Below are positions 2,942-10,464 of a stretch of DNA of 30,587 nucleotides, piece by piece; positions within the stretch are counted from its first letter, which is position 1, and every line of letters starts with the position of its first letter. Source of the DNA: a virus. The notes below the pieces were generated by a model. The model saw only the letters and a program-made list of their open reading frames with translations. It was not told the origin of the DNA and searched no databases. The stretch is from the IMG/VR virus record IMGVR_UViG_3300030101_000592, positions 26,891-57,477 of that record; one strand, given 5' to 3'. Made by a program: the position numbers and the translations under genes.

Positions 2942-3554
2942 GTGACTTGGCTTAACAGGTCTAACCTCGTCTCGACCAAACTCAGCCGCCGAAACATACC
3001 CAAACTCAACCGAACTGAACATACCTCAACTTAACGGAACTCATCACAACCGCCTCAACGGACCCCATCCGAACAAACCGGAACACACCCCGACCGCCTT
3101 GCCGTAACGGAACGGAACTCAGCAGAACCCAACTCGACTCAACCGCCGAAACCGAACAAAGCTTAACATGCCCCATCGCAACTAGACTGAACCGACACAA
3201 CTGATCGAAACCCAACAAAGCTTGACGCAACATAACCGCCCTACCTTAACTCGACTCAACGCAACAAACCGTCACAGAACGCAACTCAACATAACCGCCG
3301 AAACAGAACAGATCATACCACTACTAAACTCGCCGCGACCAAACTCAACCGCCGTAGCTCAACCGAACTCAACAAGACATAGCGAAACTTAACTAAACTG
3401 AACCGCCAAAACATACCCAAACTCAACCGAACTCGACGTAACCCAACCGCCATGACACAACCAAACGCAAATCAACCCAACTCAACTCAACCGCCTTAAC
3501 GGAACTTATCTCCACGTAACCAAACTGGACTCTCCACAACCGACTTACCTTAAC
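2942..3554. repeat. punctuated pentanucleotide array (NNAAC)n-CGCC
   Basis: This non-coding stretch of 613 nt fills the gap between two - strand genes. Read on the + strand it parses exactly into 113 pentamers and 12 tetramers (113x5 + 12x4 = 613). I counted 112 pentamers ending in C and 67 of the form NNAAC (TCAAC, CGAAC, GGAAC, TTAAC and others). The tetramers are CGCC (ten) or CGAC (two), ending at 2990, 3054, 3098, 3147, 3196, 3240, 3299, 3353, 3407, 3451, 3495 and 3544. Successive runs hold 9, 12, 8, 9, 9, 8, 11, 10, 10, 8, 8, 9 and 2 pentamers. On the transcribed - strand this reads GTTNN repeats separated by GGCG or GTCG. Period 5 and 5n+4 blocks are incompatible with a reading frame. 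A 25-nt identity links 2992-3016 and 3409-3433. Function unknown. Confidence 0.93.
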
Positions 3555-3564
3555 CCGTGGCACA

Positions 3565-3582
3565 GGGGCGGCGAACCGCCCC
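3565..3582 (-). terminator. perfect GC stem-loop after a 254-aa early gene
   Basis: Inverted repeat GGGGCGG, four-base loop, CCGCCCC. On the - strand the loop reads TTCG, a loop type known for very stable RNA hairpins. It starts 16 nt past the stop of the gene that ends at 3599 and lies between that gene and the pentamer array. No T-run follows, so it is not a textbook Rho-independent terminator; it may instead be an mRNA 3' end stabiliser or pause site. Confidence 0.5.
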
Positions 3583-3598
3583 ACTCCAAAAACATATC

Positions 3599-4363
3599 TT
3601 ATGCGGCTCTGCGTAACCGCTCTTCGTTCAAGAAATCCATCAACTCTTGAGTTTCTTCGTCGTAACACTCAGGGTGTTCGTAAGCCAACTCTTGGACTTC
3701 ACGCGCTTCTGCTACGATATCATCCCAAGCAAGTTGAGCATCTCCCATATCTTCGGCACTATATACCGAGAAGGAACCGAAAGAGCCGTTGCCCTTTTCC
3801 TGTCTGTTATCTCCAAGACCGCAGATCATACCAGAGTTAGCTAACAGAGATATAACTCCCTGTGCGTTAAAGGTAGGTGTGCAATACTTGATAGTTACTT
3901 CGGAACACCAACTTGGAAGGTACGCACGTGTACGTATGTCTGGTGTCCTATTAATATCAGCGGCTCGAACAACGTCCATTTTAAGGTAGGGCTTTCCCCA
4001 TATGTTGATCTTGGCTTCTGGAATGTAAATCAAACGATTAACATTTGCCTTTGTAATCCCTGCGGTTTCCAAGGCCGCTGTAGCTAAACCTTTTTTAATT
4101 CCTGTTGCAGGGAAGTAGAGCATGGTCTTACCATCTTTTTGTCTATACATGGTTTCCCTAAACTCTTTTTCGGGGTTGTGTTTAATCTCCCGTTTTTCTG
4201 CCGCTGTTTTGCGTTGCGCTCCTACAAGTAGGTCACGCATAGCTTTTGACCCCATGCTATTAAAATACATAGGTGTGTCACCTATAATTCTAAGTTTTAA
4301 CATTCCCTGTTTGATCGTATGGATTTGGACTGTTTCAGGGGCTTTTGATTTTACTGTAGCCAT
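3599..4363 (-). CDS. conserved phage protein of unknown function
   Basis: Protein of 254 aa from ATG at 4361-4363 (GGAG about 9 nt upstream). An upstream ATG at 4376-4378, overlapping the previous stop as TAATG, would add five residues. Order of features: MLKLRIIGDTPMYFNSMG near the start, a YFPATGIKKGLATAALE stretch in the middle, RTPDIRTRAYLPSW, then LLANSGMICGLGDNRQEKGNGSFGSF, which is the G(I/L)GD.R.EK...G.F signature of a phage family I have seen only as hypothetical. The tail is acidic and helical. The beta-rich core with a Gly-rich end loosely recalls RAMP/Cas7-like folds, but that is speculation. It lies 14 nt downstream of the VRR-NUC gene, hinting at a DNA-processing job. Confidence 0.8.
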   Translation of the reverse strand: MATVKSKAPETVQIHTIKQGMLKLRIIGDTPMYFNSMGSKAMRDLLVGAQRKTAAEKREIKHNPEKEFRETMYRQKDGKTMLYFPATGIKKGLATAALETAGITKANVNRLIYIPEAKINIWGKPYLKMDVVRAADINRTPDIRTRAYLPSWCSEVTIKYCTPTFNAQGVISLLANSGMICGLGDNRQEKGNGSFGSFSVYSAEDMGDAQLAWDDIVAEAREVQELAYEHPECYDEETQELMDFLNEERLRRAA

Positions 4364-4377
4364 TTTTTTGGTCTCCA

Positions 4378-4662
4378 TTAGAGTTTCTGTAGAGTTTCCT
4401 CTACACTTGCAATGTTGTCCTCATTGACAACCATTGATATTCCGTCAGCTAATTCGATATCTCTCAAGTTCTTTTCCTGTAATGCGGTAGGTTTGTTCCT
4501 GCCCGCTTTACATTCGATACCGATAAACCGACCTTTGTGGCATACTATTATATCTGGCACACCACTGTAGCCATACCCACCAGTGACAGGATAGAAGAAG
4601 TACGCTTTGTACTCTTTAAGTAGCTTTACTACTTTCTTTTTAACTTTTGCTTCAGGCGTCAT
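4378..4662 (-). CDS. VRR-NUC domain nuclease
   Basis: Small PD-(D/E)XK-type nuclease of 94 aa, the size of stand-alone phage VRR-NUC proteins. Catalytic signature: GVPD (D37) followed by the strand RFIGIECKAG (E50, K52), then a helix with Q62. GGYGYSGVPDIIV is typical of the family. VRR-NUC domains occur in structure-selective endonucleases such as FAN1; single-domain phage copies can cleave branched DNA. Here it likely helps resolve replication or packaging intermediates. Only a modest AGGTAG precedes the ATG at 4660-4662. A GTGG-N7-CCAC hairpin lies 39 nt upstream. Confidence 0.9.
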   Translation of the reverse strand: MTPEAKVKKKVVKLLKEYKAYFFYPVTGGYGYSGVPDIIVCHKGRFIGIECKAGRNKPTALQEKNLRDIELADGISMVVNEDNIASVEETLQKL

Positions 4663-6019: not shown

Positions 6020-7249
6020 TCACATATCCTCCGACTTGATATGAACAGTCTTACCAACATCAGCAGTTTTGTCTGAGTTGTTCAAGACACACCACAACAC
6101 AGGTAGAGACCACTCACCCCAACCACCGTAGATGTCACCATCAGTTAGAATGATACACGCTTGGGCTTTGATGTTTTTGTCTTGGATGTACTGAGTAACA
6201 CAACGTACATCAGTGCCACCGCCACCGTCTGGCTTGGTTGACTCTACAAGTTTCCCGGTAGATTGCTCGTCATAGTATTCGTCACGACATATCTCTGTGT
6301 CCCAGTAAAGAAGCCTGACGCCTGCGGGCTTGACCGTATCACATATATGCTTCACCTCAGATAAGAACTGAGCGATCTCGGAGTTGCGAATAGACGCAGA
6401 CGTGTCGATACCAATCACCAACTCCCCAACCTTTTCGGCTTCGCCACTAGGCATGTATAGGTCATCTTGTAAGTACCTACGGTTCGCTTTTCGGTATGTA
6501 CTGAATTCGTTACCACGACATGTATCGTTGACGAACTCACGCAATACCTCACGCCAATCAACCTGTGGCTGTAGCAATTCTTCGATATTGCGATTGCCAC
6601 CGCTACCAGATTTCCCTGCGACCAATGCACCTTGACGTAAGGCCTCGTCGATCTCGCGTTCGAGTTCACGCTTCTCTTCGTCCGATAGTTCTTGTGCGCC
6701 TTCCCAGTCGTGATCGTCTAGTGGACTGCCACCACCGTTACCTTGACCTTCGCCTTGACCTTCACCGTCACCGTCACCTTCACCGCCACCGTTAGTCTCT
6801 TTGTATATGGCGTTGAATATTTGAACCTCGTTCATACCTCGATACTTCTCGTCACAACATCCATCAAGAAGGGGACCCGTCATCGTAGCAAAGCCGTCAT
6901 CGTTCTCCTCGACTAGGTTATTGTTAATCATATGATCCATTGCTATGTTTGCAATCATAGGATGCTTGTCATGCAGATACTTGTATAGATACAAGTGACG
7001 CCGATACTTGTGATCGACCTCATGCAACACAAGAAATCTAAGTTCTGGATCGTTAAGTTTCTTTACGAACTCACGTGAGTACTTCTCGTCACGTCCGTTA
7101 GTATATGCGGTCTGGCAGGAAGGATCATCGGTAATCTCACGTGTGCCTATCATCAGCACTGAAGCTAGAGCCTTGTACCTATCCTTGTCCATGATCGCAA
7201 CAACGGCTTTTGCTAGCCGCTGTTCCTCTGTTAAGTTTTGTACGAACAT
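6020..7249 (-). CDS. VWA domain protein with putative metallopeptidase domain (CobT/DUF2201-like)
   Basis: Protein of 409 aa. The N-terminal part carries LVLHEVDHKYRRH, a HExxH zinc site (H76, E77, H80), as in the putative metallopeptidase domain often joined to VWA-like domains. A Gly/Glu/Asp linker follows at about 153-175, encoded by an imperfect hexanucleotide repeat. The C-terminal half is a von Willebrand A-type fold with a complete metal-ion site: DTSAS (282-286), GGGTD (343-347, Thr346) and TDGD (369-372). Such proteins pair with MoxR/CobS-type AAA+ ATPases, and one is encoded two genes upstream. Likely role: adaptor of an ATP-driven remodelling machine; the target is unknown. The start overlaps the upstream stop (TAATG) with GGGAG before it. 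Confidence 0.85.
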   Translation of the reverse strand: MFVQNLTEEQRLAKAVVAIMDKDRYKALASVLMIGTREITDDPSCQTAYTNGRDEKYSREFVKKLNDPELRFLVLHEVDHKYRRHLYLYKYLHDKHPMIANIAMDHMINNNLVEENDDGFATMTGPLLDGCCDEKYRGMNEVQIFNAIYKETNGGGEGDGDGEGQGEGQGNGGGSPLDDHDWEGAQELSDEEKRELEREIDEALRQGALVAGKSGSGGNRNIEELLQPQVDWREVLREFVNDTCRGNEFSTYRKANRRYLQDDLYMPSGEAEKVGELVIGIDTSASIRNSEIAQFLSEVKHICDTVKPAGVRLLYWDTEICRDEYYDEQSTGKLVESTKPDGGGGTDVRCVTQYIQDKNIKAQACIILTDGDIYGGWGEWSLPVLWCVLNNSDKTADVGKTVHIKSEDM

Positions 7250-7448: not shown

Positions 7449-8555
7449 TCACACTTTGTCAGCAGAATACAAGGAACTGTTCTGCATTGCCCAGTCAGTG
7501 AATTTCTTGTTGGTCATCACCATAGACTGCTTGCTGTACTTCGGTGCGCGAACACCATTGACAAACAATCCTTGTGTGATGCCATCAAGACGCGGTAAGT
7601 AATCCATCCAAGCGTTGATCCAGTCTTTGTCCAACGTAGACAGAGTTCTATACACAACCATACACTTAGCCGCTGCGTTGTCGGGTATCTTCGCACCCTT
7701 CGGATCATCTTTGATAGACTGCAAACTAGGCAACTGATTGGCAAGCTTGACGTGCGCCATCAAATCCATTGCACCACGTTCGCCAATCGCACCCATCAAC
7801 GCGGCTTGCGTTGTCACGTCATCCATATGCTCACTTGAGTTTAGAATGTCAGATGCAAACTCCCCAGTACGACATGTAAAGAAAGCGTTACGTCCTACGG
7901 CTTTCGGATGAAAGATGTACGGGTTTTCTTCGGGGTCTTTCACCTCTAGAAATGTGTGCATGAGTTGCGGATTGTCTTTGCACCAACCAAGAAAGATGTG
8001 ATTGAAGCCATTGTTGATGCCATACTCCAAGTACTCCATCATTGTGGGTTTACGAGTATTCACAATAATCATGGCGTTACGTTGGTGTGCTTGCAACACG
8101 TCACCCAAACCTTCTGCTCCAAGATTTGATGTGCCATAGATCAAGCTACCGTCAGGTAATTCCAGATTGCCAACCTTACGTTCGAGCATGATACGCCGCA
8201 CACCCTTCTTTACTGGTTCGGGTGCTTTGAACAACTCGTCAAAGTTTAGCGTGATAGGCTTACCGAGATGCGCTCCGAGTTCTGCGTTGGGAACAAACTG
8301 AATGTAGTCAGAGATCATGCCCTCTGCCGCTTTCATAAACTTCGGACCAGACAAGTCTTGAATGTCTTTGTTAGTACAATCAAACTCCACATAGATGTTG
8401 TCAGGTCTCAGTTCAGCAAGTTCTGCCGCGATGCCCGATGTTTTTGCGCTACCCATGTGACCTTGCGCGATAACCGTTCGGTTAGGCACAGAGTGTATAA
8501 GGTTAGCAGTTTGTTGGATACTTAGTGCATACATTTCTTTAGCTTGGTTTGTCAT
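7449..8555 (-). CDS. MoxR/CobS-like AAA+ ATPase
   Basis: Protein of 368 aa. Walker A GHMGSAKT at 32-39, Walker B ITLNFDE at 101-107 and sensor 1 YGTSN ending at N144 define an AAA+ ATPase. The short N-terminus and the Walker B followed by LFKAPEPVKKGVRR are typical of the MoxR/CobS branch. These ATPases act with VWA partners as chaperones or in metal insertion (cobaltochelatase CobS/CobT); the VWA protein is two genes downstream and a DUF3150-like gene is directly upstream. AAGGAGAAG precedes the ATG at 8553-8555 and a dyad lies 27 nt upstream. Substrate unknown; cobalt chelation itself is unlikely in a phage. Confidence 0.88.
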   Translation of the reverse strand: MTNQAKEMYALSIQQTANLIHSVPNRTVIAQGHMGSAKTSGIAAELAELRPDNIYVEFDCTNKDIQDLSGPKFMKAAEGMISDYIQFVPNAELGAHLGKPITLNFDELFKAPEPVKKGVRRIMLERKVGNLELPDGSLIYGTSNLGAEGLGDVLQAHQRNAMIIVNTRKPTMMEYLEYGINNGFNHIFLGWCKDNPQLMHTFLEVKDPEENPYIFHPKAVGRNAFFTCRTGEFASDILNSSEHMDDVTTQAALMGAIGERGAMDLMAHVKLANQLPSLQSIKDDPKGAKIPDNAAAKCMVVYRTLSTLDKDWINAWMDYLPRLDGITQGLFVNGVRAPKYSKQSMVMTNKKFTDWAMQNSSLYSADKV

Positions 8556-9806: not shown

Positions 9807-9825
9807 GCGTGGTTGATAGCCACGC
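9807..9825 (-). promoter_or_regulatory. GTGG-N7-CCAC dyad (copy 6)
   Basis: GCGTGG, 7-nt loop, CCACGC, 20 nt upstream of the zinc-ribbon start. The flanks match those of copy 3 (TTCGG before, CA after on the + strand), so both probably derive from one duplicated block of hairpin plus ribosome site. Confidence 0.7.
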
Positions 9826-9885: not shown

Positions 9886-9936
9886 TACGTATTACAAGTT
9901 TTCTGACTTTACGTTTGTTTACTAATTTACGACTGT

Positions 9937-10230
9937 AATGTTCGTTTTATAGTGTGTTTTCGTGGTTTATTGTGAATGTTCGTTAATGTTCGTTATGTGG
10001 TCTCTGTAACTTATTGAATATAAAGTAATGTTCGAATGTTCGTTTGTTCTTGGGTTTTATGAGCGCGGAAATGTGGTTGTGATGATGCGAACAATCGCAA
10101 AAAAGAGGGGGTCGCGTACGTAGGGTATCTTTTTATTTAACGAACATTAGGAACATTAGGAACATTATAATAAAATCAATAACTTATTTTTGCATAAAAA
10201 CGAACATTCAGGAACTTCTTTGCGAACATT
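9937..10230. other. iteron-like clusters of AATGTTCG in opposite orientations (candidate origin or control region)
   Basis: No gene is supported here. Five AATGTTCG copies lie on the left (9937, 9975, 9985, 10027, 10035). On the right are the reverse form CGAACATT at 10141, 10201 and 10223, and two shorter GAACATT copies at 10151 and 10160 in a 9-bp tandem with the first. Between them is a segment containing GCGAACAATCGC (10087) and an A-rich stretch. Left copies point one way and right copies the other, giving a large inverted arrangement around about 10090. The flanks are AT-rich. Repeated short sites in an AT-rich gap within a replication gene block are typical of initiator-binding origins or of multi-site operators; which applies cannot be told from sequence. 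Confidence 0.6.
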
Positions 10231-10270
10231 ACAAAGACGCAACGCTACTTAGGAACTGGTATTGGCTTGT

Positions 10271-10287
10271 CGTGGTTACTAGCCACG
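10271..10287 (-). promoter_or_regulatory. GTGG-N7-CCAC dyad (copy 7)
   Basis: CGTGG, 7-nt loop, CCACG in the non-coding segment after repeat copy 1. Its flanks (GT before; GTG, then AACTA after) resemble those of copy 2 at 5989. Confidence 0.6.
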
Positions 10288-10387
10288 TGCAACTAGAAGG
10301 TGCAGCAGGGACCTGTAGTACGTTGTAAACTTTGTGGAAAGATCTTGTCACGTGGGCGCAACGCTGATCAAGAACTGGCATTATCTG

Positions 10388-10404
10388 ATCGTGGAATCCA
10401 CGAT
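10388..10404. promoter_or_regulatory. variant dyad ATCGTGG-N3-CCACGAT
   Basis: Perfect 7-bp inverted repeat with a 3-nt loop after repeat copy 2. It shares the CGTGG/CCACG core with the dyad family but has a shortened loop. Confidence 0.55.
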
Positions 10405-10435
10405 GACGCAATGCTGCTCAAGAACTGGCTTCTGT

Positions 10436-10459
10436 CCGCCAAGCCGTTAAGCTTGGCGG
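10436..10459 (-). terminator. 9-bp stem-loop after the small membrane protein gene
   Basis: CCGCCAAGC, 6-nt loop, GCTTGGCGG, beginning 5 nt after the stop of the 34-aa gene on the - strand. The stem is long and GC-rich, but no T-run follows in the leftward direction, so it may act as a transcript end or stabiliser rather than a classical intrinsic terminator. Confidence 0.5.
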
Positions 10460-10464
10460 TATGT

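Follow-up and report, generated by a model that had tools for sequence, protein, structure and literature searches.

The array at positions 2942-3554 of the window, a 30,587-nt stretch of viral DNA, is very probably a guide-RNA array of VIPR (Viral Interference Programmable Repeat), a phage-encoded system that was described in a 2026 preprint as consisting of the RAMP protein Vipr, an accessory gene vap, and vrRNAs (PMC13142463). As stated in the main text of that preprint, a vrRNA has 9-16 units in which a GGY scaffold 'or a related consensus' alternates with hypervariable NN, and the target is read with one base, usually the wobble base, skipped between NN pairs (PMC13142463). Repression and inter-phage conflict are given as the uses, DNA targeting was shown experimentally, and Escherichia phage SUSP1 and a P. 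fulva prophage serve as examples (PMC13142463). Seven types are distinguished, with 'staggered arrays' among the architectures, vap1-6 as the accessory classes, and a structured invariant 3' tail on the type II vrRNA (PMC13142463). Systems of the VIPR kind have been known since 2026; little has been written on the compact layout found here, in which guides lack tails and are shuffled between phages. Our hypothesis of a RAMP with a discontinuous guide was formulated prior to finding the preprint. Since the protein linked to the array is of the RAMP type and the relatives of the array are vrRNA arrays, each run of pentamers is most likely one guide, with NN carrying the target information. The preliminary description of this DNA had treated NN as filler and had missed the protein partner, whose RAMP gene is linked to the array.

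The leftward transcript runs through the 94-aa gene (4662-4378), vipr (4378-3599), a hairpin (3582-3565), the modules (3544 to 2942), and the 166-aa gene (2911-2411). The features are as follows.

4378..4662, minus strand: nuclease-like gene, 94 aa, PHROG 93 endonuclease with a weak Hjc match, directly upstream of vipr
3599..4378, minus strand: vipr, 259-aa RAMP-family protein with a predicted RRM-like core and C-terminal helical extension
3565..3582, minus strand: GC hairpin GGGGCGGUUCGCCGCCCC, between the vipr stop codon and the array
2942..3554, minus strand: probable guide array of the vrRNA type; 12 modules, each with 8-12 GUUNN units, and a run of 2 units at the 5' end of the RNA; possible start at 2937
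3496..3544, minus strand: module 12, the 5'-most complete guide of the RNA, 9 units, GUCG boundary at 3541-3544
3452..3495, minus strand: module 11, 8 units
3408..3451, minus strand: module 10, 8 units
3354..3407, minus strand: module 9, 10 units, homologs in L008 and L015
3300..3353, minus strand: module 8, 10 units, NN letters identical to an L004 module; also common to L002
3241..3299, minus strand: module 7, 11 units, common to L015
3197..3240, minus strand: module 6, 8 units, common to L008 and L004
3148..3196, minus strand: module 5, 9 units, bounded by GUCG (3193-3196), common to L008
3099..3147, minus strand: module 4, 9 units, common to L008 and L012
3055..3098, minus strand: module 3, 8 units, no copy seen in the other arrays compared
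2991..3054, minus strand: module 2, 12 units, identical NN letters in L005, L012, and L014
2942..2990, minus strand: module 1, last in the RNA and 3'-terminal, 9 units, common to L008 and L004
2411..2911, minus strand: candidate vap (VIPR-accessory) gene, 166 aa, mostly helical

The 613 nt of the array were re-parsed into 113 consecutive pentamers with a remainder of zero, of which 112 end in C and 67 are NNAAC. Runs of 8-12 pentamers are split in register by CGCC (ten times) and CGAC (twice), the final run has 2 pentamers, and TTACC at 2937-2941 is one extra unit that is also in register. The counts of the preliminary description were thus reproduced exactly, and its claim that the register exceeds chance was borne out as well. 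The parse score was 338, compared to a shuffle maximum of 22 and to 10 in the rest of the window, and the autocorrelation that had been suggested as a check gave a lag-5 identity of 0.475, compared to 0.304 +/- 0.017 in dinucleotide shuffles (maximum 0.350). One module boundary plus eight C-phased pentamers was found at 7 places in the window and in none of 100 shuffles. On the plus strand, the entropy of pentamer positions 1 and 2 was near the maximum (1.91 and 1.93 bits), compared to 0.87, 1.25, and 0.07 bits at positions 3, 4, and 5. Two ORFs are listed inside the array (3006-3233 and 3423-3668, both minus); since both disregard the register of the 5n+4-nt modules, a coding array was rejected, as had been concluded previously.

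A pattern scan that recovers related arrays also picked up true microsatellites (CAACC, CAACT) at L069, L084, and L114, and the array might likewise be a functionless simple-sequence expansion produced by slippage. However, neighbouring NN pairs were no more alike than expected (8 observed vs 10.5 expected), the NN entropy was near maximum, the register survives the 4-nt marks, and the arrays co-occur with one gene family. Slippage is barely conceivable as the explanation.

Because the array lies between two leftward genes, its RNA reads GUUNN with GGCG marks, which agrees with the transcript given in the preliminary description and supports action at the RNA level, one of the two roles considered there. 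In the transcript-strand unit G-U-U-N-N, G is almost invariant, UU is favoured, and NN has near maximal entropy; the mark between runs is GGCG (10 times) or GUCG (twice). Among the modules of the window's array group, GUU was the first unit after the mark in 96%, compared to approximately 55% at the other units, a difference to which the search pattern contributes slightly by favouring GUU. This enrichment makes GGCG-GUU look like a fixed 5' boundary. Extra RNA folding of the array did not exceed that of shuffles (z 0.28), no structured 3' tail was found between the array modules, and the GGGGCGGUUCGCCGCCCC hairpin is not an obvious terminator since a U-tract is absent. The Rfam search of the window gave no match, and the Rfam search of 13 related loci detected neither hammerhead nor other RNA at the arrays.

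TRAP, a ring protein, has sites of about 11 (G/U)AG triplets at a spacing of ~5 nt. Each run had been taken in the preliminary description as a landing pad for such a ring or another repeat-type nucleic-acid-binding protein, and the 5-nt period and the 9-13 G-initiated units per module do resemble TRAP site spacing as generally known. Nevertheless, modules differ in length by whole units (8 to 12 or more), their triplet is GUU where TRAP has (G/U)AG, and the conserved linked protein is a CRISPR-type RAMP, which makes a TRAP-like ring or other non-RAMP repeat protein very improbable. The part of the landing-pad proposal that holds is a repeat-type nucleic-acid-binding protein that reads the RNA in 5-nt steps; the ring and the generic pad were given up in view of the RAMP partner and of relatives that are vrRNA arrays.

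The evidence for the RAMP partner comes from linkage, fold, and homology. A profile grown from the vipr product detected a homolog in 35 of the 39 diverse-array loci, compared to 3 of the 102 loci lacking a diverse array; of the four array loci with no homolog, two (L015 and L016) have the array at or near the end of the sequence stretch. The Pfam search with the 259-aa product gave no match, and the PHROG search returned an unknown PHROG only. The AlphaFold2 model had a pLDDT of 80, and the best 50 Foldseek matches of this model were all CRISPR effector RAMPs (best E 6.4e-6), including Csm3, type VII Cas7, and Cas7-11. VIA-align of the model with CRISPR RAMPs gave Z up to 10.1 over residues 21-212, and the predicted fold of the 3599-4378 product is that of a Cas7/Csm3-type CRISPR RAMP. 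The alignment contains the glycine-rich loop G-[LI]-G-D-x-R...G-x-[FY]-G-x-F, which reads G-L-G-D-x-R...G-S-F-G-S-F in the window Vipr.

The profile of the window Vipr relatives matched SUSP1 ALH47069.1 (E 4.6e-30), LESphi2 P21_9 (E 1.3e-38), and UmaThurman gp39 (E 4.8e-45). It follows from the locus layout that ALH47069.1 is the published vipr. GGY/NN pentamer runs adjoin the Vipr-like genes of SUSP1 and LESphi2, and the SUSP1 gene is flanked by GGTNN runs. The profile match to SUSP1, together with these runs, identifies the window as a VIPR locus, and the window Vipr was placed on a long branch away from SUSP1. The 'hypothetical proteins' of Gordonia phage UmaThurman (NC_031249.1, gp39, L143) and Pseudomonas phage LESphi2 (OQ594955.1, P21_9, L144) are Vipr homologs, and three GGC/NN guide-like runs lie upstream of P21_9 in LESphi2.

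Homologs of the 166-aa protein were found in 26 loci, the window included, and near vipr in most of them; they are upstream of the array in some lineages and downstream in others. UmaThurman gp41, located beside the Vipr homolog, is related to this protein. The fold search with its model (pTM 0.42) gave no match. We regard the gene at 2411-2911 as a candidate VIPR accessory gene (vap). The 94-aa nuclease-like gene immediately precedes vipr in the window, L002, L004, L008, and L012, and its membership in the VIPR system is uncertain.

Outside the locus, the second long gap of the window (9930-10230) carries AATGTTCG / CGAACATT in multiple copies, both direct and inverted, among them three tandem GAACATTAG, and looks like a cluster of operator- or origin-type repeats. 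Degenerate repeats of approximately 75 nt (GACGCAACGCT..TCAAGAACTGGC..CGTGG) occupy 10230-10460 and recur at 9812, 10590, and 11340; beside them, near the divergent early/late junction, GTGG..CCAC hairpins recur (e.g. GTGGTTGATAGCCAC). On the minus strand, a VWA-like/metallopeptidase protein (DUF2201, PF13203/PF09967) adjoins a phage ATPase (PHROG 1297) at 6020-7249 and 7449-8555, which is a MoxR/VWA-like pair.

Similar arrays were found in approximately 35 other viral contigs. The collection was scanned with AAC(NNAAC)4CGCC, which represents one module boundary. This search for arrays in viral contigs, which had been suggested in advance, matched 17 contigs, most of them with whole arrays of like design, compared to a chance expectation of ~0.4 by our estimate assuming ~50 billion bases. 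Further scans with the CGAC mark and with (NNAAC)7 alone yielded more arrays, some lineages having TGCC or longer linkers, and plain microsatellites among the matches were left out of the diverse-array set. Almost every diverse array has GTT on the coding strand of the genes to either side, and the related arrays occupy the gap between co-directional genes, from the upstream stop codon to the ribosome-binding site of the next gene. The mRNA sense of the GTT strand and the filling of intergenic gaps point to RNA. The preliminary description had made its reading depend on related phages, in whose gap both the array and the register were found to be kept. No near-identical DNA was found for the window among deposited phages.

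Several related genomes showed features of their own. L030, L031, L033, L045, L056, L063, L091, and L127 have short GUUNN arrays in two or more of their intergenic gaps, mostly near vipr, with longer lineage-specific linkers in place of the tetramers; one of these genomes is 236 kb. In L009 (7675-7720) and L011 (minus), the array stops at an intrinsic terminator made of GGGCGC..GCGCCC and then a T-run, in contrast to arrays that run into the next gene. In a second array group (L024, L029, L010, L016, and L017), a 556-aa helicase-like protein with the N-terminus MMLRPYQEVAVSSA..GAGKT is encoded downstream of the array, possibly a VIPR-linked helicase or just the phage replication helicase. HEARO RNAs (RF02033, HNH-associated) were located at L087 12529-12750 and L089 9984-10218, in contigs that also have VIPR arrays.

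Related phages carry common modules in differing order and combinations. In several modules common to different phages, all NN letters were kept and the scaffold letters differed; the copies of module 2 in L005, L012, and L014 vary only in scaffold letters and length. In an unbiased count of module pairs with at least 90% identity, NN changed at a rate similar to that of scaffold positions 3-4, so the module data are consistent with selection on NN but do not prove it. Synonymy among unique NN differences, each counted once, was not significant.

The guides were decoded with NN as codon positions 1-2 and the third (wobble) base skipped. Under this rule, guides of L024, L028, and L029 decode to T-T-[IM]-R-Y-A-[HQ]-[LF]-A-P, a tyrosine integrase motif, with different synonymous codons among these guides (Arg AG/CG and Leu CT/TT). 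The L024 guide matched an integrase gene in L097, identified as such by PF00589, at 19 of 20 bases, the skipped bases falling on wobble positions; the chance estimate for a match of this type was ~0.03 before allowing for the several skip lengths tried. Guides in three window-group phages decode to [DE]-W-[DE]-P-[DE]-H-[IV]-[IV]-P-[FL]-S, which with its DHIVPLS we take, by eye, to be a probable HNH nuclease motif.

As for the window's own guides, the letters of module 9 matched a single gene of L145/L146, two related, near-identical 160-kb phage contigs, at 20 of 20 with a one-base skip and in frame (HYKSILDRET). Since ~0.4 matches of this type are expected by chance, the match is a lead only, and as a true target it is only suggestive. 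The exact scan of viral_contigs with module 7 hit a single tail-fibre-like gene in four contigs, which is within chance, and its scan of the genome collection gave scattered, codon-phased bacterial genes; modules 2, 8, and 5 had no match in exact scans of viral_contigs. When 169 modules were decoded against 1.47 Mb of local loci, the matches of at least 7 pairs numbered 26 for skip-1 vs 14 in the reversed control, 18 vs 12 for skip-0, and 19 vs 10 for skip-2. All three skips exceeded the control, and this comparison therefore gives no general proof of the one-base-skip rule; with 60 modules, a previous comparison had given no excess of decoded matches. Overdispersion of codon-phase likelihood across modules was not found, so that both population-level tests for codon-phased guides (overdispersion and NN synonymy) were unsupportive. 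The decoded peptides were too short for Pfam, in which the positive controls failed too.

These results bear on the possibility that the RAMP-like protein coats GUUNN RNA for a non-targeting purpose, such as mRNA protection, regulation of a downstream gene, or a counter-defence decoy, with NN as neutral filler. The non-significant overdispersion and synonymy tests, and window guides without established targets in the scans run, are in line with such a scaffold. However, the sister-array NN decode to integrase TTMRYAHLAP in three phages and to the probable HNH DHIVPLS in three, one sister guide matches 19 of 20 bases in an integrase gene, homologous modules often keep all NN letters while the scaffold drifts, and the homologous VIPR system has been shown by experiment to target DNA (PMC13142463). 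A non-targeting scaffold is thus unlikely. We consider it probable that the window guides obey the one-base-skip rule and are directed against mobile elements.

With the array read as VIPR guides, a mechanism can be outlined. The array would be transcribed leftward behind vipr into an RNA made of GUUNN units, and Cas7-like Vipr protomers would bind this RNA with presumably one protomer per 5-nt unit, GUU being the scaffold gripped by Vipr and NN being exposed for pairing. A run of 8-12 units enclosed by GGCG/GUCG would be one guide with 16-24 target-specifying bases, and guides would be delimited, presumably at GGCG, by the 4-nt mark, which keeps the register and in nearly all cases has a strict GUU after it. 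The resulting RNP would bind double-stranded DNA with one ignored base, mostly the codon wobble, between consecutive NN pairs, and would repress genes of competing phages or prophages, so that the phage may silence its rivals during co-infection. RNP assembly, the one-base skip, transcriptional repression, and inter-phage use are carried over by analogy from the published system (PMC13142463); what the guides of the window target, and what the 166-aa protein does, is our inference.

No RNA-guided system with a discontinuous guide had been described before VIPR, which has been proposed as an ancestor of CRISPR RAMPs. The present locus extends VIPR to a lineage with a GUU scaffold triplet and the densest guide packing among the loci compared, and with these two properties the rules of unit recognition and guide boundaries become testable. 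In the related arrays, guides appear as modular cassettes that phages gain, lose, and rearrange among one another. Some guides read active-site codons that are conserved in integrases, and probably in HNH nucleases, which suggests a route to durable targets. It is conceivable, although we lean slightly against it, that the locus represents a distinct VIPR type, in which one transcript carries a dozen tail-less guides bounded only by an in-register GGCG and a strict GUU, and guide cassettes are swapped between co-occurring phages by recombination, giving an evolving memory of rivals without acquisition machinery.

Among known systems, TRAP leader arrays are similar in being an RNA element of ~11 short motifs with ~5-nt spacing; however, the window has the triplet GUU, a variable unit number, many modules, and a partner that is a RAMP, not a ring. 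Class 1 CRISPR effectors (Csm3/Cas7, types III and VII) share the predicted RAMP fold of Vipr and an RNA-guided filament logic in which pairing is disrupted periodically. The window differs from them by a unit of 5 nt rather than 6, by discontinuous guide letters, and by lacking CRISPR repeats, contiguous spacers, and other cas genes: no Cas family was detected among the 20 window proteins scanned, and no identical repeats with contiguous unique spacers were present in the array. The closest resemblance is to VIPR. In both, a RAMP homolog adjoins an intergenic RNA whose 5-nt units combine three scaffold letters with two hypervariable ones, in a small locus with a candidate accessory gene, the window protein is homologous to SUSP1 ALH47069.1, and guides in sister arrays decode with a one-base skip. 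The modules have 8-12 pentamers, or 9-13 if the boundary tetramer is counted, compared to the 9-16 units of VIPR. Nevertheless, the window scaffold is GUU rather than a strict GGY, and its fit depends on the 'related consensus' wording in the main text of the preprint; approximately 12 guides abut, separated by no more than a GGCG/GUCG tetramer and lacking a visible 3' tail; the window Vipr has a C-terminal extension of approximately 50 residues; and no relationship between the accessory protein and any SUSP1 protein was detected. The locus is an added VIPR member, which may equal one of the seven published types, for example the one with 'staggered arrays', or possibly be a new variant.
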